A stretch of 57,343 nucleotides of DNA, taken from assembly GCA_949935795.1 (NCBI GenBank), contig CATLFX010000013.1:1-57343 (forward strand), in the 5' to 3' direction. Position 1 is the first letter of the stretch. Every line of letters begins with the position of its first letter. Positions 2,754-11,707 of the stretch are shown here, in pieces. The position numbers and the translations under genes were made by a program. The stretch is from an uncultured Oscillospiraceae bacterium (lineage in GTDB: Bacteria; Bacillota; Clostridia; Oscillospirales; Oscillospiraceae). The notes beneath the pieces were generated by a model. It was not told where the DNA came from. It worked only from the letters and a program-made list of their open reading frames with translations, and made no database searches.

Positions 2754-3869
2754 TCACCTGTCTCCCACAAGGCCCTCCATAAAAGCGGCCTTATTCTGCT
2801 GAGGCGTGGCAGTAGGCCGTCCCAGGTCGGCCCGCGCGCCCAGGGCGCACTTCACCTCGATAAAGGCGAGCTCCTTGGCGGCCTTTACCGCCTCCAGCGC
2901 TCTTTTCAGCTCCTCTGGGTTGTCCACAGAAAAAACACCAGGGTAGCCGCAGGCTTTGGCGATGGCCCGCAAATCCACCTTCCCCGCCACTGTGGGCATA
3001 CCACCCACGGACTCGTGGGCCTGATTGTTCAGCACAATGTGGACGAGATTTGCGGGCTGATTGGCCCCGATCAGCGCCATAGCCCCCAGGTGCATCAGCG
3101 CCGCCCCGTCCCCGTCCAGGCACCACACCCGGCGCTCCGGCTTTTGCAGCGCGATCCCCAGGGCGATGGACGAGCTGTGCCCCATGGACCCCACCGTCAG
3201 GAAGTCATGGCCGTGGCCCTGTCCCCGGGCCTCCCGCAGTTCGTACACCTCCCGGCTGGCCTTGCCCGTGGTGGACACCACCGGGTCCTCCCCGGATGCC
3301 TGGAGAATGTGTCCGATGGCCTCCTCCCGGCCCATGGAGTAAGGGTTGGTGTAAACGGTTTTCCCGCTGTACTCCAGCGCCCCCTTGCGCACCACAAAGG
3401 CCGCCTGTTTTCCCTGGGCGAACAGGGCGCCGTACTCCCCCAGCTTGGCCTGGATCTGCTCCTCCGTGGCGGTCTTGTCGATGACAAAGCACGGAATGTC
3501 CAGATCCTCCAGCAGTTTGAGGGTGATTTCCCCCTGAAACAGGTGCTGGGGTTCATCGTGGACCCCCGGCTCTCCCCGCCAGCCCACAATAAACAGGCAG
3601 GGGATACCGTACACCTTCCCGTTCAGCAGCGACGCTGCCGGGTTCACGATGTTCCCCAGTCCGCTGTTTTGCAGATACACCACCGGCGTCTTCCCCGTGG
3701 CCAGGTGGTAGCCCGCCGCCAGCGCCGCCGCGTTGCCCTCGTTGGCTGCGATGACGTGGTGGGCCGGGTCCAGCCCGTATTTGTCCATCAGGAAGCTGCA
3801 CAGCGCCTTCAGCTGGCTGTCCGGCACCCCAGCGAAAAATTCAAACTCCTGTAAAAAGTCCAGGGTCAT
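2754..3869 (-). CDS. ppd: phosphonopyruvate decarboxylase
   Basis: This 371-residue thiamine-diphosphate enzyme converts phosphonopyruvate to phosphonoacetaldehyde and CO2, the step that pulls the unfavourable PEP mutase equilibrium toward phosphonates. The N-terminal PYR domain carries the conserved glutamate in AANEGNAAALAAG (residues ~41-53). The C-terminal PP domain carries GDGAALMHLGAM and VLNNQAHESVGG. The length fits Ppd/AepY enzymes. The start overlaps the stop of the upstream radical SAM gene by four bases, with GGGAG six bases earlier, so the two are translationally coupled. It is the last gene of the run behind flagellin. No aminotransferase or dehydrogenase for the aldehyde is present in the window. 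Confidence 0.93.
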   Translation of the reverse strand: MTLDFLQEFEFFAGVPDSQLKALCSFLMDKYGLDPAHHVIAANEGNAAALAAGYHLATGKTPVVYLQNSGLGNIVNPAASLLNGKVYGIPCLFIVGWRGEPGVHDEPQHLFQGEITLKLLEDLDIPCFVIDKTATEEQIQAKLGEYGALFAQGKQAAFVVRKGALEYSGKTVYTNPYSMGREEAIGHILQASGEDPVVSTTGKASREVYELREARGQGHGHDFLTVGSMGHSSSIALGIALQKPERRVWCLDGDGAALMHLGAMALIGANQPANLVHIVLNNQAHESVGGMPTVAGKVDLRAIAKACGYPGVFSVDNPEELKRALEAVKAAKELAFIEVKCALGARADLGRPTATPQQNKAAFMEGLVGDR

Positions 3870-5290
3870 TGCTCCCTCACCTTCCGCTTGAAGTCGGTGG
3901 ACGACACTCCCTGGGTGTACTCCGGCTCGACCACCTCGCCGCCCCACGACCCCATCAGGTCGATGGCCTTCCGCCGCACCTCCGCCAGCGGGCCGGTGCG
4001 CCAGTCTGTGCCGTGGACCATGTAATCCGGCCGGTACCGCCGCAGGTTGTCCGAGTAGTCCTTGGTCTCCTGGCACACCACTTCGTCCACGTACTTCAGG
4101 CTCTCCAGCACGGTCTTCCGCTGTTCATAGTCCATGTAGGGCTCCGGCTTGTAGCTGCGGATGGCCTCGTCGCTGAACAGCCCCACCACCACCCGGCCCA
4201 GGGAGGCGGCAGTTTTCAGGATGTTGATGTGCCCCGGATGGAGGATATCCGCCGCCATGGGCACGTACACCAGCTTGGTGTAGGGGAACCCGGCGGCCTT
4301 GATCCGCTCCCGCACCTGCCTGTCCAGGAAGATGTCCGGGTTTTCCGTGGCGTACTCCGGCATCAGGGGCGCGGCGGGGGACTGGCAGTGGTGGACGCAG
4401 CCGTGGCACAGGGTGCCCTCCAGGCAGTCGTCCAGGAACATCCGCCGGACCTCTTTCATTTTATCACCATACCAGCCCTCTTTCAAGGACACTTTGTTCA
4501 AATCCGCCACAATCAGCATATTTTCAAAGTCCGCGTTCTCCACGGACAGGTAGCCCTCGCAGGTCACGCACAGCGCGTCGAAGGGCAGGTTGCACCGCCG
4601 GGTCTGCTCCTTGTCGTGGGTGCACTTCAGCTGCCAGTCGATCTCCGGCATGTAGCCCCCCTGGTTGTACACGTCCTTGAACACGATCTGGTCCGCCAGC
4701 CCGTCGAACACCTTGAAGTAATCGTCCCTTGTGTGTTCTGTGTACCGGGTGAGGATGCCGGTGAGGTAGATTTTGAAGTCCCGGCCGCTCTCCCGGCGGT
4801 ACTGGTTCAGGTATTTCAGGTGCTCCATCACCGTGTCGAAGTCGTCGCGCCCGTGGATGAACTCATAGAGCTTCCGCTCCGGCGCGTTGATGGAGAATTT
4901 CACGCTGTCCACCCCGGCGTCCACCACCGCCCGGATGCGCTCCGGCGTGGCCAGCGACCCGTTGGAGGTGAGGTACACGTAGGTGTACCCGATGTCCTTG
5001 GCCAGCTTCACATATTCCGCCAGCTCCGGCACGATGAAGGGCTCCCCGGTGGCGTACATGCCCACCTCCCGGGCGCCCAGCTCGTAGGCCTGCCGCAGGG
5101 CGCTCTCCACCATCTCCGGGGCCATCTTGCCCACCTTGCGCCTCATCTTCTGGTGGGCGCAGAACAGGCAGGCTTGGTTGCAGGCATTGGACAGCTCCAG
5201 CAGGAAGTTGGTGGTGGGGAATGGGGGCTCCAGGGTGTACAGCTCGTTCCGGTCCGCTTTTTTCAGCCGGACACGCTCTTGTAAGTCCAT
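3866..5290 (-). CDS. radical SAM/SPASM protein fused to a cytidylyltransferase domain
   Basis: This 474-residue two-part protein begins with a radical SAM core bearing CNQACLFC (Cys 37, 41, 44). It is followed by a cysteine-rich SPASM-type segment (Cys 223, 233, 241, 244, 289, 295, 298, 302), enough for auxiliary 4Fe-4S clusters. From about residue 338 it is a nucleotidyltransferase of the glycerol-3-phosphate cytidylyltransferase type, with HPGH at 351-354 and DYMVHGTDW. The family would join CMP to a phosphorylated or phosphonylated small molecule. The radical SAM half could modify that molecule or the acceptor; its chemistry cannot be told from sequence. There is no B12-binding domain, so a B12-dependent methyl transfer is less likely. 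The ATG at 5290 has AAAGGAG upstream. Confidence 0.85.
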   Translation of the reverse strand: MDLQERVRLKKADRNELYTLEPPFPTTNFLLELSNACNQACLFCAHQKMRRKVGKMAPEMVESALRQAYELGAREVGMYATGEPFIVPELAEYVKLAKDIGYTYVYLTSNGSLATPERIRAVVDAGVDSVKFSINAPERKLYEFIHGRDDFDTVMEHLKYLNQYRRESGRDFKIYLTGILTRYTEHTRDDYFKVFDGLADQIVFKDVYNQGGYMPEIDWQLKCTHDKEQTRRCNLPFDALCVTCEGYLSVENADFENMLIVADLNKVSLKEGWYGDKMKEVRRMFLDDCLEGTLCHGCVHHCQSPAAPLMPEYATENPDIFLDRQVRERIKAAGFPYTKLVYVPMAADILHPGHINILKTAASLGRVVVGLFSDEAIRSYKPEPYMDYEQRKTVLESLKYVDEVVCQETKDYSDNLRRYRPDYMVHGTDWRTGPLAEVRRKAIDLMGSWGGEVVEPEYTQGVSSTDFKRKVREQ

Positions 5291-5320
5291 AATTTGCTCT
5301 CCTTTTGGGCCTTTCGCCCG

Positions 5321-6628
5321 TTATTCTTCCGGAATGAGGGTCAATATCTCCTTGATGGGCATACAGTAGGCCTCGTCCGCCTCCTTGGCCCGGCGGCAGC
5401 GTAAAATGGCCTCCGCCGTCTTCCGCATGGCGGGGTAGCCGCTGCGGATCAGGTGGTTTGCGTAGATCACCACGTTGACCCCCCGCTCCTTCCACTCCGC
5501 CTCGGTGACCGAGTTGAAGGAGGTGGGCACGATCACCAGGACCGTGTGTTTGTCCCGCTCCCGGAACCGGCGGCAGAACTCAAAGATCTCGTCCGGCTCC
5601 TTCCGCCGGGAGTGGATCATGATCCCCCCGGCCCCCGCCTCCACGTAGGCAAAGGCCCGCGCCAGGGCGTCCTCCATCCCCTGCTCCAGGATCAGGCTCT
5701 CAATTCGGGCCACAATCATGAATTCGCTGGTTTTTAGAGCTCCTTTTCCTGCCGATATCTTATGACAGAAGTTCTCGACGCTGTCCTGCCGCTGGTTGGC
5801 CTCCGTCCCGAAGAGGGAATTGCGTTTCAGGCCAATTTTGTCCTCAATGATGACGGCGGACACCCCGATACGCTCCAAAGTGCGCACGGTGTACACAAAA
5901 TGCTCCGTCAGTCCCCCGGTGTCCCCGTCCAGGATCATGGGCTTGGTGGTCACCTCCATGATCTCGTTGATGGTGTTCATCCGGGAGGAGAAGTCCACCA
6001 GCTCGATGTCCGGCTTGCCCTTGGTGGTGGAGTCGCACAGGGAGGACACCCACATGCCGTCGAACTGCCGGACCTCCCCGTTCTCCATCACCGCCGTCTT
6101 CTCCGCGATGAGGCCCGTCAGCCCGTTGTGGGCCTCCATGCAGGTGATGAGCCCCTTGCGCTCGATCAGCCATTTCAGCCGGCCCCGCCGCAGGTCCGGG
6201 ATGGACGCCTGGGCTCGGGCCGCCGCCTCCAGCCGGTCGTACTCGTCGTTGTGGGAGTAGGGGAACTCCACCAGCTGCCCGCCGTACTCCGCCAGCAGGG
6301 CCAGGCACTCCTCCCGCACCGGTTTCTGGAAGCCCTCCCGCCAGTCGTCCCCGTGGACCACGTAGTCCGGCCGCAGCGCCCGCAGCGGCGCGGCGTAGCC
6401 GATCTCGTCCTGCTGGATGACCCGGGCCACCCCCTTCAGGCCGGCCACGATCTTCATCCGCTCCTCGCAGGTCAGCAGCGGATGCCGCTTGTAGGACGCC
6501 ACCACCTCGTCCGTCAGCACACCCACCGTCAGCTCCCCCAGCTGCGCCGCTTTGTGGATGATCTCCATGTGGCCCCCGTGGATCACGTCGGCCCCGATGG
6601 ACATGAATACCGTCTTTTTCTCTCCCAT
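5321..6628 (-). CDS. pepM: cytidylyltransferase-phosphoenolpyruvate mutase fusion
   Basis: This 435-residue fusion starts the pathway: PEP mutase rearranges phosphoenolpyruvate to phosphonopyruvate, forming the C-P bond. Residues 1-~140 are a CTP-type nucleotidyltransferase (HGGH at 17-20, DYVVHGDDW). Residues ~150-435 are the mutase, with DGDTGG near 234-239 and the diagnostic EDKIGLKRNSLFG (EDK 262-264, NS 270-271), which separates mutases from isocitrate-lyase relatives. Similar fusions are known from capsule and polysaccharide phosphonate loci, where the nucleotidyltransferase makes a CMP-phosphonate. It lies three bases after the CysC-like gene and 30 bases before the radical SAM gene. 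The catalytic motif is intact. Confidence 0.93.
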   Translation of the reverse strand: MGEKKTVFMSIGADVIHGGHMEIIHKAAQLGELTVGVLTDEVVASYKRHPLLTCEERMKIVAGLKGVARVIQQDEIGYAAPLRALRPDYVVHGDDWREGFQKPVREECLALLAEYGGQLVEFPYSHNDEYDRLEAAARAQASIPDLRRGRLKWLIERKGLITCMEAHNGLTGLIAEKTAVMENGEVRQFDGMWVSSLCDSTTKGKPDIELVDFSSRMNTINEIMEVTTKPMILDGDTGGLTEHFVYTVRTLERIGVSAVIIEDKIGLKRNSLFGTEANQRQDSVENFCHKISAGKGALKTSEFMIVARIESLILEQGMEDALARAFAYVEAGAGGIMIHSRRKEPDEIFEFCRRFRERDKHTVLVIVPTSFNSVTEAEWKERGVNVVIYANHLIRSGYPAMRKTAEAILRCRRAKEADEAYCMPIKEILTLIPEE

Positions 6629-6631
6629 GCC

Positions 6632-7147
6632 TCAGCCCTCCAAACTCAGCGCCGCGGCGCGCAGTATGGCGATCTGCTCCTCCGGCGTCCGCCCTCCGTT
6701 GTTGTCCAGCACCAGGTCCGGGGCGTCGGGCAGCTCCACCTGGAGCCCCACCCCGGCCACGTTGTCCGCGTTTTGGCTGTACAGCCCCTTCTGGTCCCGC
6801 CGCCGCAGGGTATCCATGGATGCTTGTATGTATACCTCGTAATAGCCCGGAATATTGGCCCGGTTCCACGCCCGCACGCTGTGGAACATGGAGATGGTGC
6901 AGCACACCACCGTCACCCCCTGCCCCGCCAGCAGCCCGCACAGCCGCCCGTAGCTCTCCGCCAGCTTCCGCCGGTCCGCCGCGTTAAAACCCAGCCCCGA
7001 GCCGAACACCGCGCGCATCTCGTCCCCGTCCAGGAACACCACCGTCTCCCCGGACCGGCGCAGCTCGTCCCGCCACAGCCGCCCGATGGTGGTCTTGCCC
7101 GCCCCGGACAGCCCCGTCAGCCAGTACACCCGATTTTGTCTCTCCAT
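6632..7147 (-). CDS. adenylylsulfate kinase-like protein (CysC family)
   Basis: This 171-residue P-loop kinase has GLSGAGKTT (residues 12-20) and FLDGDEMR, the usual APS-kinase layout in which APS is phosphorylated to PAPS, the sulfate donor. No ATP sulfurylase is nearby, so PAPS production would need one elsewhere. CysC-like kinases in glycan clusters may also act on other small substrates. It sits ten bases behind the sulfotransferase-like gene and three bases before pepM, so it belongs to the flagellin-linked operon. The start ATG at 7147 follows GAGGAG by six bases. The fold is certain; the substrate is inferred only. Confidence 0.82.
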   Translation of the reverse strand: MERQNRVYWLTGLSGAGKTTIGRLWRDELRRSGETVVFLDGDEMRAVFGSGLGFNAADRRKLAESYGRLCGLLAGQGVTVVCCTISMFHSVRAWNRANIPGYYEVYIQASMDTLRRRDQKGLYSQNADNVAGVGLQVELPDAPDLVLDNNGGRTPEEQIAILRAAALSLEG

Positions 7148-7157
7148 TGTCTTCTCC

Positions 7158-9179
7158 TCAGTGGTACAGCGGCTGTTCCAGCAGCGCCTCGTCCAGCTCC
7201 AGCTTCGGCATCATGTGCAGAGGCTGGCCATGCCGGTTCACAAAGCGCAGACCCCGCATCAGAATCTCCGAATTTTTCACACGGTTCTCCCGGAAGGACT
7301 TTACCTGGTTTTCCAACAGCTGGTTCTGCACGTCCAGCTCCACCTTCTCCTCCACTCGCTGATCGTTTACCGACACCGTGGCCTTTTTATAGATTTTCTT
7401 CCAGGTGTCCCGGATATAGTGGTCGATGGTGGTGAAGCCCTCCAGCAGCTCCTTCACCCGGTCCTCGTCCATGGGCCCGCCGTCGTAGTACTGGAAGCCG
7501 TAGCCGTAATATTCATAGGCGTCCCGCAGGAAATACTCGATATAGGTCCGCTCCGCGTCGTTGACGTACTCGTCATAGGTGCGGTACACCGCCGCCGGGT
7601 CAAAGCCCCGCACGTTCCCCGCCAGGGATTCCGGGTCCACCTCCCCGTTCAGCGAACAGTAGGTCATGCTCTGGGTGTAGGGCAGGTCCAAAAACGCCGC
7701 CAGCGCCGTAAATGTGGCTTTTGGGTTCAGCTTGGCGTCCTCAAAGCGCACCAGCGCGCTGTCCGCATACAGCCGGTCCAGCCAGTCCACCATGAAGCTG
7801 CGGTTCAGCACCCGCTGGCTCACCGCGTCCGGCACCACCGCCTGGGCCTCCCCCTCCTTGGCCTCCTTCTGAGAGCTCTGGTACATGAACTTCACCGTGG
7901 CCCCGTGGCTGGTGGTGAACCGCCGCATAGGGGTGAAGGTCTTGATGTACTTGAAGCCCCGGAAAATGGGGGACTGCACCGTCTTGTCGTACACCTCCGA
8001 CTTCAGCACCGTGCGATTCTTTTGATCCACCTGGAGGCTGTACACGATGTTCGGGAAGTGGGGCTGGAAAAACACCGCCGGGGCGATCCGCGCTGCTGGG
8101 TCCATGCTTTTCAGGGCTATGTCCGAGGTGAGGTACATGGCCACAAAAATGTCCTTGTCCGAAGGATTTTGTAGGCTGCGCAGCTCGTGGAGAATCCGGG
8201 TCGTCTGCGGGTCGTTGCCCGCCATCAGGGCCTGGGCCGCCTCCTTGGAGCTTTTGGCGTTAGCCAGCGCTGTGCGCCAGTTCCCAATCTGCTCCTCGAT
8301 GTCCTTCATCATCAGAGAGGGCATGGCAATCAAGTTGGGATGGCCGTCAAAAATCTCGTTGAAAAAGTCGCCGCCGTTGTGGGTGGACAGCTGGGTGTGC
8401 CAGATCAGCTTATTGACCTCCCGCACCGCCAGCGGCTTCACCGGGTACTGCCCGTAGTCCGCCCCGAACCGCTCCTTGAAGTCGATGGGGTACTGGGAAA
8501 CCTCGTCCCCAATCAAAAATACAAACTTTTCGTCCTCCAAAAGGGGCCGCAGGTTCAGGCATTGCAGATGGGCGCAGAACTCCGCCCAGTCCGTGTAGTG
8601 GAGATAGACGTGGTTGTCCCGGCCCACCCACTCGCTGGGCCGGACGCTGTCGTTCAGGTACTCCAGCTCGTACTGGGAATACACATCCCGCGCCAGCACG
8701 GGCTTTTCCAGGTCCTTGAAGAAGTTCCGGCTCACCACCGGGCGCTTGAAATCTATGTACTCCCCAAAGCGGTCCTCCTGAACGTGGTAGGGCACAAAGC
8801 GGTCGTCGTCAAAAGGATAGAACCGCAGGGGCAGAAATTCAAAGTCAAGAAAGTCCTTTCGGAACAAATAAGGGTACTTTGCCAGCAGCTTGCAGTTATT
8901 CTCGTACCGGGTTTTCAGCAGCTTCACGTTGGGCTCGTAGAACGCCTGGGTCATGATGGACAGGCAGTCCTCCTGAAAACAGCCCCGGCGGTACAGGTCG
9001 ATGAGGGCGCTGTAGCTCACCTTGTAGTCCCCGCCGTTCTGGAGGATGTACAGCGCCGCCTCCAGCTGAATGGCCGGGTCGTCCGCCCCGCTCTCGTGGA
9101 TGGCGACGGCGTACGCCTTGATGGCCCCCTCGGGCTGGTCCAGGGCGGCGAGCTGGCGGGCGATCTCGATGGCAGTCAT
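7158..9179 (-). CDS. large sulfotransferase-like protein, candidate flagellin-modifying transferase
   Basis: This 673-residue cytoplasmic protein has no signal peptide. The N-terminus (residues ~5-60) looks like TPR-type helical repeats. The middle contains HTQLSTHNGGDFFNEIFDGHP, reminiscent of the sulfotransferase region after the PAPS loop. A later stretch, LVRFEDAKLNPKATFTALAAFLDLP, is a good match to the C-terminal sulfotransferase motif. A normal 5'-PSB loop is not obvious, so the donor could differ from PAPS. It is the first gene after flagellin and its terminator. The start is ATG 9179, with AAGGA nine bases upstream; a TTG two codons earlier is less likely. Transfer of sulfate or a phosphonate group to a flagellar glycan is inferred from position. 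Confidence 0.65.
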   Translation of the reverse strand: MTAIEIARQLAALDQPEGAIKAYAVAIHESGADDPAIQLEAALYILQNGGDYKVSYSALIDLYRRGCFQEDCLSIMTQAFYEPNVKLLKTRYENNCKLLAKYPYLFRKDFLDFEFLPLRFYPFDDDRFVPYHVQEDRFGEYIDFKRPVVSRNFFKDLEKPVLARDVYSQYELEYLNDSVRPSEWVGRDNHVYLHYTDWAEFCAHLQCLNLRPLLEDEKFVFLIGDEVSQYPIDFKERFGADYGQYPVKPLAVREVNKLIWHTQLSTHNGGDFFNEIFDGHPNLIAMPSLMMKDIEEQIGNWRTALANAKSSKEAAQALMAGNDPQTTRILHELRSLQNPSDKDIFVAMYLTSDIALKSMDPAARIAPAVFFQPHFPNIVYSLQVDQKNRTVLKSEVYDKTVQSPIFRGFKYIKTFTPMRRFTTSHGATVKFMYQSSQKEAKEGEAQAVVPDAVSQRVLNRSFMVDWLDRLYADSALVRFEDAKLNPKATFTALAAFLDLPYTQSMTYCSLNGEVDPESLAGNVRGFDPAAVYRTYDEYVNDAERTYIEYFLRDAYEYYGYGFQYYDGGPMDEDRVKELLEGFTTIDHYIRDTWKKIYKKATVSVNDQRVEEKVELDVQNQLLENQVKSFRENRVKNSEILMRGLRFVNRHGQPLHMMPKLELDEALLEQPLYH

Positions 9180-9204
9180 AGTCAAGATTCCTTTCGGGTG
9201 GTTT

Positions 9205-9234
9205 AAAAAGGGGGGCGGGCCAAAGCCCGCCCCC
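9205..9234 (-). terminator. strong rho-independent terminator after flagellin
   Basis: On the minus strand a perfect 10-bp GC stem (GGGGGCGGGC against GCCCGCCCCC, 9211-9220 and 9225-9234) with a four-base loop is followed by C and TTTTT. It should end most flagellin transcripts and leave the modification genes to read-through or a weak promoter of their own. Confidence 0.85.
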
Positions 9235-9291
9235 GCTGTTGGGTCTATGCGATTTGTGCCAAGAACAGCTCACGCGGCGTTGTCTCGCTTC

Positions 9292-11451
9292 TTACTGGAG
9301 CAGCTGCAGCACGCCCTGAGGCACCTGGTTGGCCTGGGCCAGCATGGCCTGGGCGGACTGAATCAGGATGTTGTTCTTGGTGTAGGCCATCATTTCCTCG
9401 GCCACGTCCACGTCGCGGATGGTAGACTCGGCGTCCTGGATGTTCTCGGTCATGACGGACAGGTTGTTGATGGTGTGGTCCAGACGGTTCTGGGTGGCGC
9501 CCAGAGTACCGCGCACGTCGGACACGGTGTTGATAGCCTTCTTGATCTTGTCGATGGCGGCCTGAGCGGCTTCCTCGGTGTCGATCTTCAGCTTGCCCAC
9601 GCCGATGGACCCGGAGTGCATATCCTGCACGGCCACGTTCAGCTGGTTCCAGCTGTCGCTGGTGTCGCCAATCTGGAGGGTCAGGCCCTTGCCCAGAATC
9701 TGCGGAGCGGTGCGATCCTTGGCGGCGATGTTGACAGTCTTGCCATTCTCGTCCTTGCCTGTAGCCTTACCCTCAATGTTCAGATATGCCTTTCCATCAG
9801 CGTCCGTCTTCTTGGTCACAGTGTAGCCCTTGCCCGCAATGGCGGTCTTGATCGCGTCAATGTCCTCGCCGCCCTTAAAGGTGATCTTGTCGCTACCGAT
9901 GTTCAGCACGTTGCCTTCCTTGGCGGTGCCAGTGACATACAGCTTGGTGCTGGCAACAACCTCATCAGCGCCAGCGTCCTTGGCGGTAATCAACGCACGC
10001 ATCTTAGCCTCGCTATCGGCCTTGCTGGCGTTGGCGGCAGTGGTCACGTCGATGTGGAGCGTGGTGTTGCCGTCCTTCAGACCGATGGTGAAGATATTGG
10101 CAGTCTGGTGAGCACCGTTAGCATTACCATCGGGTTTTGCAGGAGAGCCGCTCTGGTGCGCGCCACCAGCCATAATCAGAGCAGCTTGACGGGCCTGGGC
10201 AGTGGCACCCTCCACCATGGACACGTCAATGGTCACGACAGTCTCGTTTCCATCTGTAGCAGCGGTGTAGGCATCGGCCTTAGAGTTGGAGGCCTCAGTC
10301 TTGAACACGTAGGTGGTACGGGTCGGAGTGGAGCCAGTAGCACCGGCGATGGTCAGCGTAAAACCGTCCTTCACCAAGCTACCAATGTTGATGTCAACAC
10401 CAGGACGCTGGGCAGGCTGATCGGCCACAGCGTTCTTGACGTCGGTGAGAGCATGGATTTCGGTCTTGCCGTCGGTGAGCTTGGTCTTAGAACCGACTGC
10501 CTCGACCGTAACACCCCTACCAATCGAATTATTGAAAGTATTTGCCTTGGTGACACCACTGGCACCGGAAACAGCAGTCGCCCAAGCTTGGGCCTTTGTC
10601 CCACCGACAGAGTCATAGTCGAACTTGACAGAAGTGCCAGTGACCGTATACTTCATGTACAGGCCACCGATCTTGATGGTGTTTGCACCATTGCCGTCAG
10701 TGCCTGTGGCGGCTGCATCCAGCGCTGCCTTAATCGCGTTCTTGATCTGGTTTGCACTCGCTTTGCCACCCGCCGCAACAGTATTCGTGCTAGTGGCATT
10801 AATGACAAGGGAGCCAGCAGTAATCTTGAATTTCACATTGGTTGCGGAACTATGGGTATTATTGATCTCAATATCGTTCAGATCAATCTTAAACGAAGGT
10901 GCCGTACCAGTAACGGATTTGCCACCATGGTAATTGCTGACAGCGGAAGTCAGATCAATGGTATCGGGATTAACTGCGGCGGTGTAGCTATCGCCACTGG
11001 AGATCTTGAACGTGTCGGTGTTCAGGCCCAGGGTGCCATCCAGCAGGTTGATGCCGTTGAAGTTGGAGCTGTCGGCGATGCGGTCGATCTCGTCCAGCAG
11101 CTGGTTGACTTCCTTCTGCATCTGGGCGCGGTCGGTGGTGTTGTCGTAGGTGCCGTTGGCGGACTGGGTGGCCAGCTCCACCATACGGTTGAGCATGTCG
11201 TGAACCTCAGTCAGAGCGCCCTCAGCGGTCTGCACCAGGCTGATGCCGTCCTTGGCGTTCTTCTGGGCGGTCTCCAGGCCGGTGATCTGGGCGCGCATCT
11301 TCTCGGAAATGGCCAGACCGGCGGCGTCGTCACCGGCGCGGTTGATCTTGTAGCCGGAGGAGAGCTTCTCCAGGTTCTTCTTCATCGCAGACACGTTGTT
11401 CGTGTAGTTGCGATAGGCACTCATTGCCATAATATTGTGCTGAATACGCAT
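9292..11451 (-). CDS. fliC: flagellin with a large variable central region
   Basis: This 719-residue protein is the filament subunit, exported by the flagellar type III system. The N-terminal D0/D1 region is classical: [45 protein letters not shown]. So is the C-terminal D1/D0 region: [56 protein letters not shown]. Residues ~165-610 form an expanded, Thr/Ser/Ala/Asn-rich centre that would face outward. Its GC content is visibly lower than the conserved ends, which suggests diversification or exchange. Typical flagellins have about 270-500 residues, so this one is unusually long. AAAAGGAG precedes the ATG. The genes directly behind it look dedicated to modifying it. Confidence 0.97.
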
Positions 11452-11707
11452 GATCTTAAACTCCTTTTCAAAAATTTATTTCGCGCTTCCGCCATCCATT
11501 GCGTCGGCGCGTAGGACTCCGGATGTTCGGGAACAACCTGGCCGGGGTGTTCCGTTCGTCCGGCGCTGGGGTACTATTTCAACCGGCCCGGAACCGGGTG
11601 AAACCGAATCTGCGCGGCGGTCCGCAGCCTCCCATCCCACATCTTGTGGAAGGAATCTTCTCCGACCGCCTACGCTAACTATATCGTCCCTCAATTTAAA
11701 AAATTAA
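11452..11707 (-). promoter_or_regulatory. flagellin sigma-28-like promoter and ~220-nt leader
   Basis: On the minus strand CTTAA (-35 core TTAA, 11704-11707), a 15-bp spacer and GACGATAT (11681-11688) resemble the sigma-D/sigma-28 pattern CTAAA-N15/16-CCGATAT. The leader of roughly 220 nt is unusually long. It has several GGA motifs, one of them beside the ribosome site, the arrangement expected for CsrA binding. There is no direct evidence of a CsrA site beyond these motifs. Confidence 0.4.

Follow-up and report, generated by a model that had tools for sequence, protein, structure and literature searches.

In Campylobacter, the enzymes Cj1415-1418 make cytidine diphosphate (CDP)-phosphoramidate 3'-phosphate, which according to the accessible part of one article (PMC11800397) probably donates the phosphoramidate of the capsule, and a cytidine diphosphoramidate kinase has been reported in the accessible part of another (PMC6429109). 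In Clostridioides difficile, the type A glycan of the flagellin FliC carries 2-aminoethylphosphonate (AEP); in the available text of that study, the organism is described as negative for pepM, the gene of phosphoenolpyruvate (PEP) mutase, and the Discussion leaves the source of AEP open (PMC8861647). Here we describe a candidate flagellin-decorating operon at positions 2754-11451 of a stretch of 57,343 nucleotides from an uncultured Oscillospiraceae bacterium (contig CATLFX010000013.1; this whole stretch is called the window), in which genes for phosphonate synthesis and activation lie behind a flagellin gene (fliC). A first-pass annotation had proposed that this operon makes a phosphonate linked to cytidine monophosphate (CMP) that is attached to flagellin, and had known of no phosphonate-modified flagellin, of which the FliC of C. 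difficile is in fact an example. In a literature search on flagellin with phosphonate or PEP mutase, with sulfotransferase plus adenylylsulfate kinase, or with CDP-ribitol, the present gene arrangement is not described in the titles and abstract openings among the matches listed, most subscription papers and all preprints lying outside the scope of the search.

The arrangement is not confined to the window. Directly behind the flagellin gene lies that of a divergent protein resembling the sulfotransferase superfamily (ST), followed by that of a CysC-like P-loop kinase. ST matches were found in 11 of 250 genomes of the family, one of which (G182) is a sulfotransferase-like protein of 179 residues that was excluded as ST; the GTDB contigs contributed 19 ST loci, a search at class level found ST in one of 391 genomes, namely the window's own, and plasmids and viral contigs yielded none. 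The 28 distinct loci are the window, L016-L041 and L043 (L034 and L042 are one contig, as are L032 and L141, each counted once), and the upstream side is unreadable in five of them (L018, L026, L027, L034, L043). In all readable loci but one, 22 of 23 with the window included, ST is preceded by a flagellin gene; the exception is L040. Behind ST, 27 of the 28 loci have a CysC-like gene, the contig of the remaining one (L041) ending within ST; at this junction, a small open reading frame intervenes in L019 and L036, and a gap of about 1.2 kb in L023. Among the loci of a later search, tallied apart from the 28, flagellin precedes ST in five of six readable cases (L139, L140, L142, L143 and L145, not L146; L144 is unreadable). 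Moreover, flagellin matches occur in nine of the ten genomes with true ST versus 56 of the 250 family genomes (p = 7e-6), or in seven of ten versus 53 of 250 if only matches above the cut-off are taken (p = 0.001); in G106 and G222, which are among the nine, the flagellin matches are only weak and partial, and the contigs carrying ST end within it. Since the same arrangement is present in other genomes of the family, the layout of the window is not due to chance. The constant core is formed by flagellin, ST and the CysC-like kinase, and the remainder is an interchangeable cassette.

The cassettes fall into several types, most of their members having been placed by tblastn or by clustering with scanned representatives. 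A PEP mutase (PepM) cassette is present in seven of the 28 loci (window, L017, L027, L028, L034, L039, L043), and a ribulose-phosphate epimerase with an IspD-like cytidylyltransferase and a Zn-dehydrogenase, which looks like a set for CDP-ribitol-type synthesis, in five (L020, L025, L026, L035, L037). IspD-like enzymes are accompanied by a short-chain dehydrogenase/reductase in six loci (L018, L022, L024 from the cultured commensal Flintibacter muris DSM 110149, L029, L033, L036) and occur in other combinations in three (L023, together with a CTP_transf_like fusion, L030 and L040), while L019 carries a fusion of an NTP-transferase and an aminotransferase. Three loci have a fusion of the CysC-like kinase with a methyltransferase and no cytidylyltransferase (L016:12045-13199, L021:5387-6538, L031:6537-7679; the methyltransferase domain was scanned with Pfam in L016 and assigned by clustering and length in L021 and L031), and these loci might make a methyl-phosphate-type donor. 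The last three are unclassed (L038; L032, with a broken ST; L041, truncated as noted above). Overall, a cytidylyltransferase-type enzyme is found in 22 of the 28 cassettes, or in 23 if the L038 gene, grouped by clustering with L023's CTP_transf_like fusion, is counted; the NTP_transf-type enzymes among them would be expected to use cytidine triphosphate (CTP). Some relatives (L019, L029) also hold glycosyltransferase or nucleotide-sugar genes within the cluster, and L039 has a full AEP set, including a PhnW-AepZ protein at 424 bits (cut-off 360.8).

Among the PepM loci, the window, L017, L028 and L039 have flagellin upstream and L027 has it downstream; the L034 and L043 contigs begin within ST. 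The link to flagellin proposed at first pass is thus one that recurs across relatives, and the adjacency is not peculiar to this genome, PepM-type cassettes standing behind ST and the kinase in all six other loci. As to the conservation of fliC-pepM adjacency, which the first pass had suggested surveying, this adjacency recurs, but the conserved core is ST plus kinase, PepM is one cassette among several, and in six of ten sampled family genomes with PepM over the cut-off no ST, CysC-like or flagellin match was found in the fetched surroundings of PepM. In a tree of 23 complete ST sequences (L034 and L043 left out; 10 of 20 inner branches starred, 8 open), the PepM label, carried by five rows, requires at least three changes by starred branches, which implies more than one gain or loss of this cassette. 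The ST proteins of the window and L016 share 75% identity, their CysC proteins just 52%, and their cassettes differ. Since kinase and ST stay constant while the cassettes vary, the substrate of both should be a feature common to the cassettes, 22 of 28 of which contain a cytidylyltransferase-type enzyme.

Individual loci show further peculiarities. The genome G688 (L032, Pseudoflavonifractor sp. 524-17) has four flagellin-ST units, L139, L140, L141 (= L032) and L142; ST is fragmented in two of the four, and the remaining two extend to contig ends. Flagellar variation could draw on these units as a reservoir. L040:12783-15057 is an ST-CysC-IspD locus in a genome (G244) in which no flagellin was detected; the ST match there lacks the N-terminal part. 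L146:1558-5557 is a tandem ST pair on a 9.4-kb contig, with neither a flagellin nor a CysC-like gene detected.

In the window, the six operon genes were confirmed at the claimed positions, all on the minus strand, and the coordinates bear out the order, shared strand, gaps and 4-base overlap given by the first-pass annotation; the motifs EDKIGLKRNS, HGGH and HPGH that it had named are likewise present. The flagellin, presumably the acceptor (9292..11451, 719 residues; PF00669 4.7e-45, PF00700 7.2e-29), had been called unusually long. It is the longest of 22 compared (323-719 residues, some cut by contig ends), but six others exceed 640 residues. It is separated by 112 bases from ST (7158..9179, 673 residues), the proposed phospho- or phosphonyltransferase acting on flagellin, and within this gap a G+C stem followed by a T run (9205..9236, minus strand) resembles a terminator and perhaps limits read-through. 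A scripted test for a hairpin plus T run was passed by 14 of 19 flagellin-ST intergenic stretches; by eye, four of the five that failed have a similar G+C stem and L033 a weaker one. From ST onward, the genes are spaced by gaps of 10, 3 and 30 bases and the 4-base overlap. Given the gap and the terminator-like stem after flagellin, the tight operon proper begins with ST. It continues with the CysC-like kinase (6632..7147; PF01583 1.4e-28), proposed to be a cytidine 3'-kinase, a CTP_transf_like domain (ct1) fused to PEP mutase (5321..6628), a radical S-adenosylmethionine (SAM) domain fused to a cytidylyltransferase (ct2; 3866..5290; PF04055 1.3e-21, PF01467 4.9e-15) and phosphonopyruvate decarboxylase (2754..3869). 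Pfam recognised no glycosyltransferase among the six genes, nor any match of the type of LicD, the protein that acts in Lic-type decoration, among their products.

Around the operon, a sigma-28-like flagellar promoter can be read by eye upstream of flagellin at 11681-11707 on the minus strand (TTAA-15 bases-GACGATAT), by comparison with the sigma-28 consensus. Positions 1-1100 of the minus strand look by eye like fibronectin-type repeats belonging to a large surface protein that the end of the contig truncates. The window's genome (G000, 70% complete) has three more matches to the flagellin N-terminal domain, on contigs C49, C39 and C10; those on C49 and C39 sit at contig ends, so that breaks in the assembly may hide further flagellin loci.

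At the gene level, the assignment of a phosphonate pathway is well supported by sequence similarity. PEP mutase scores 400 bits against TIGR02320 (cut-off 319.55), and the motif EDKxxxxxNS described for PEP mutases in the accessible part of PMC6697681 is present as EDKIGLKRNS. The decarboxylase scores 466.6 bits against TIGR03297 (cut-off 312.5), and with both enzymes above curated cut-offs the phosphonate synthesis first proposed stands. Likewise, the proposed cytidylyl activation is upheld by the best match of both ct1 (2.8e-40) and ct2 (1.5e-44) among cytidylyltransferases in the PDB, 5x3d, which is labelled phosphoenolpyruvate phosphomutase there and which we take to be the cytidylyltransferase of Fom1. 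The two complete fusion proteins likewise match 5x3d best among cytidylyltransferases. In ct2, YTQGVSSTDFK is aligned with YTPGISSTRL of 5x3d, and HPGH and VSST are present; with the best match and the HxGH and ISST-type motifs of Fom1-type cytidylyltransferases, ct2 is likely a CTP:phosphonate cytidylyltransferase. The ISST motif is absent from ct1, as from ten other readable PepM fusions (L077, out of frame in the alignment, was left aside). The product of the Fom1 cytidylyltransferase is CMP-hydroxyethylphosphonate, as far as the accessible part of PMC6697681 goes. The radical SAM-cytidylyltransferase fusion occurs in three of the 250 family genomes (G000, G106 and G222, there on two contigs), each time in this type of operon. 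An aminotransferase of the PhnW/AepZ type (TIGR03301 above cut-off) was found in none of these three genomes, the window's being incomplete, and the best score was 38.7 bits; in G050, the same family is matched at 424 bits. Therefore, AEP is not the expected product in these genomes and was set aside for the window, whose product is probably another phosphonate, for which a hydroxyethylphosphonate derivative would be the candidate.

The ST protein of the window (P0005) has no match in Pfam, NCBIfam or PHROGs, and a search of the PDB with an ST profile gave chance-level matches alone (E 0.88 and 0.99). Its relation to sulfotransferases runs through the G182 protein (L082), which Pfam recognises as a sulfotransferase (PF13469 1.7e-7, PF00685 1.2e-6): the window ST matches it with 37.6 bits (E 9.4e-10 for the G182 genome), and a profile of ST residues 255-570 with 68.9 bits (E 3.6e-22, the searched set comprising just 17 sequences). 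Sulfotransferases that use 3'-phosphoadenosine 5'-phosphosulfate (PAPS) bind it through 5'-phosphosulfate-binding (5'-PSB) and 3'-phosphate-binding (3'-PB) motifs, [KR]SGTT and RNP...S. By eye, these are replaced in the ST loops by [HD]NGGD and an FTPMRR-type stretch, and the window ST thus shows neither the family match nor the motifs of a PAPS-dependent enzyme, its relation to them being a distant one via L082 only. The N-terminal 250 residues of ST were never found apart from the rest of the protein (12 of 340 genomes).

A PHP-type gene resembling bisphosphate phosphatases lies inside the cluster in 12 of the 28 loci (L020, L021, L024, L025, L026, L029, L031, L033, L034, L035, L037, L038), spanning several cassette types. 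The protein from L042 (the same contig as L034) is closest to RNase RNM and 3',5'-nucleoside bisphosphate phosphatase at about 174 bits each, under cut-offs of 375 and 400 (NF041577: 173.9 bits, cut-off 400), and its best PDB matches are 9etk, 7ug9, 3e0f and 2yb1. Copies at least 56% identical occur in six of seven genomes searched, all except the window's. The gene is in the operon in G106 and away from the ST locus, on other contigs or stretches, in G050, G638, G640 and G647; in G222 it is found on contig C124, some 1.1 kb beyond what remains of the ct2 gene, and probably belongs to the same operon split across two contigs.

Taken together, the operon is real and recurrent and probably functions in flagellin decoration, and the following donor chemistry and attachment are proposed for it. 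From the families of the enzymes, PEP mutase and phosphonopyruvate decarboxylase would generate phosphonoacetaldehyde, which, since no AEP aminotransferase was found, would probably be reduced by a host reductase to a hydroxyethylphosphonate-like molecule. The radical SAM part may tailor the phosphonate, and ct2, by its similarity to 5x3d and the Fom1 type, would couple it to CMP. Cj1415 is a CysC-like protein and the kinase of the 3'-phosphorylation step in C. jejuni; as in the Cj1415-1418 pathway, the CysC-like kinase would phosphorylate the 3'-hydroxyl of cytidine, yielding a PAPS-like donor. ST would then move the phosphonyl group onto hydroxyls of flagellin or of its glycan, freeing 3'-phospho-CMP, which the PHP-type bisphosphate phosphatase could recycle. 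In relatives, the same pair of ST and kinase would handle other cytidine-linked groups, phospho- or phosphonyl-. We regard this reading as a whole, that of a flagellin-decorating operon with swappable donor cassettes, CMP- or CDP-linked groups, a cytidine 3'-kinase and transfer by ST to flagellin, as evenly poised between right and wrong. A more general logic of protein decoration is put forward more tentatively, at somewhat less than an even chance: a flagellin-dedicated transferase of sulfotransferase fold would draw on PAPS-like donors in which 3'-phospho-cytidine carries a phosphonate, a polyol phosphate or methyl phosphate, the cassette slot being filled anew in different lineages and some genomes having several flagellin-ST units.

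The adjoining CysC-like and sulfotransferase-like genes would also fit sulfation of flagellin, with the CysC-like protein making PAPS, ST acting as an ordinary sulfotransferase and the phosphonate genes being independent neighbours. The window kinase (P0004) scores 168 bits against the adenylyl-sulfate kinase subfamily NF004041, above its cut-off of 127, and CysD matches below the cut-off occur in six of 24 ST genomes (190.6 bits in G203, below 25 bits in the others). However, P0004 reaches just 99 bits against TIGR00455 (apsK), under the cut-off of 138.7, and the altered ST loops deviate from the PAPS-binding motifs. Moreover, against two solved kinases of adenosine 5'-phosphosulfate (APS), 7yq0 and 8a8h, all 27 CysC-like proteins have lost the N of HNR, carry an M where SPY has its P, and possess a shorter lid (7-8 residues against 12); the general kinase signature is kept (P-loop in 25 of 27, DGD in 26 of 27, the misses being incomplete gene models). 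Neither Sat (PF01747) nor CysD above the cut-off was found in the 24 ST genomes, a set that excludes those of L018, L022, L034 and L043, and CysN was not searched for; these absences are weakened by a completeness of at least 90% in just three of the eight ST genomes of known quality. Both the conserved residues of the solved kinases and a genomic source of APS are therefore lacking, so that APS is an unlikely substrate of the CysC-like kinase. With no Sat, no CysD over the cut-off and altered kinase residues, sulfation was dropped as the leading explanation and keeps only a slight chance of being correct.

Three other explanations accept more of the gene content. The phosphonate may sit on a flagellin glycan, as AEP does on N-acetylglucosamine (GlcNAc) in C. 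difficile type A (PMC8861647, in its accessible part), possibly with the same donor chemistry. Besides that precedent, the glycosyltransferase or nucleotide-sugar genes in the L019 and L029 clusters speak for it, and the first-pass annotation had named attachment to glycans as background; this is possible, but the six window genes, with no recognisable glycosyltransferase, give no indication of it (the rest of the genome was not searched, nor were the other PepM loci scanned gene by gene), and we consider it unlikely, albeit with an appreciable chance. It is rather improbable that the kinase acts on a small molecule or on the acceptor and not on a nucleotide, ST being a binding protein or an enzyme of a non-PAPS type. 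ST is indeed very divergent and the kinase substrate is a prediction from sequence, yet the kinase is kept across cassettes with differing small molecules, phosphonate and ribitol-type routes are not known to need an extra kinase, and the bisphosphate-phosphatase-like gene inside 12 of the 28 clusters fits a nucleotide 3'-phosphate. The least probable explanation, which we scarcely credit, is that a cell-surface phosphonate cassette merely happens to lie behind flagellin. The six genomes with PepM away from ST and flagellin and the terminator-like stem would agree with a coincidence, but ST and CysC with differing cassettes stand behind flagellin in 22 of 23 readable loci, and the ST tree implies that the PepM cassette arrived at or was lost from this site repeatedly.

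The preferred reading, transfer of cytidine-activated groups to flagellin by ST, is itself opposed by several observations. Besides the NF004041 score, the CysD-like matches and the incomplete genomes already given, the terminator-like stem divides flagellin from the remaining genes, L040 and L146 are ST loci without an adjoining flagellin gene, and no cytidylyltransferase was found near the CysC-methyltransferase fusions of L016, L021 and L031. In addition, the sulfotransferase kinship of ST hangs on the single bridging sequence L082, comparing ST with PF13469 proteins profile against profile was uninformative (probability <1%), and the PHP-type gene was not found in the window or in the assembled part of its 70%-complete genome.

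If the preferred reading is true, the window encodes a path leading from PEP to a flagellin-bound phosphonate, which bears on the question of the AEP source for C. difficile flagellin. PAPS-like chemistry would then cover, besides sulfate and phosphoramidate, phosphonates and polyol phosphates placed on protein. Chemically variable flagella would be predicted in Oscillospiraceae, to which several of the relatives belong by their records, and such variation could affect motility, adhesion and host recognition.

Compared with known systems, the proposed chemistry is closest to the O-methyl phosphoramidate pathway of C. jejuni (Cj1415-Cj1418, with Cj1421/Cj1422 needed for attachment), which likewise has a cytidine-activated phosphorus group and a 3'-phosphorylated, PAPS-like donor; this likeness lies in the described chemistry. 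That pathway places phosphoramidate on capsule, whereas the window combines flagellin with a phosphonate. In Lic/Pnt-type surface decoration, a CMP- or CDP-activated small molecule is moved to a surface structure (PMC6697681, in its accessible part), whereas the window has a sulfotransferase-like transferase with a dedicated CysC-like kinase and lacks a LicD-type match. The cytidylyltransferases of Fom1, from fosfomycin synthesis, and PntC resemble those of the window in activating a phosphonate with CMP and in the fusion of cytidylyltransferase to PepM (accessible part of PMC6697681); unlike in these enzymes, in the window it is the radical SAM domain, and not PepM, that is joined to the domain bearing the ISST-type motif. 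Finally, C. difficile type A modification (cd0240-cd0244) and its AEP variant also place phosphorus-linked groups on flagellin, as the accessible parts of PMC8861647 and PMC4441256 describe. They are built on a glycosyltransferase-based GlcNAc core in a pepM-negative organism, whereas the window has PepM beside flagellin and ST with the CysC-like kinase as its proposed attachment pair.

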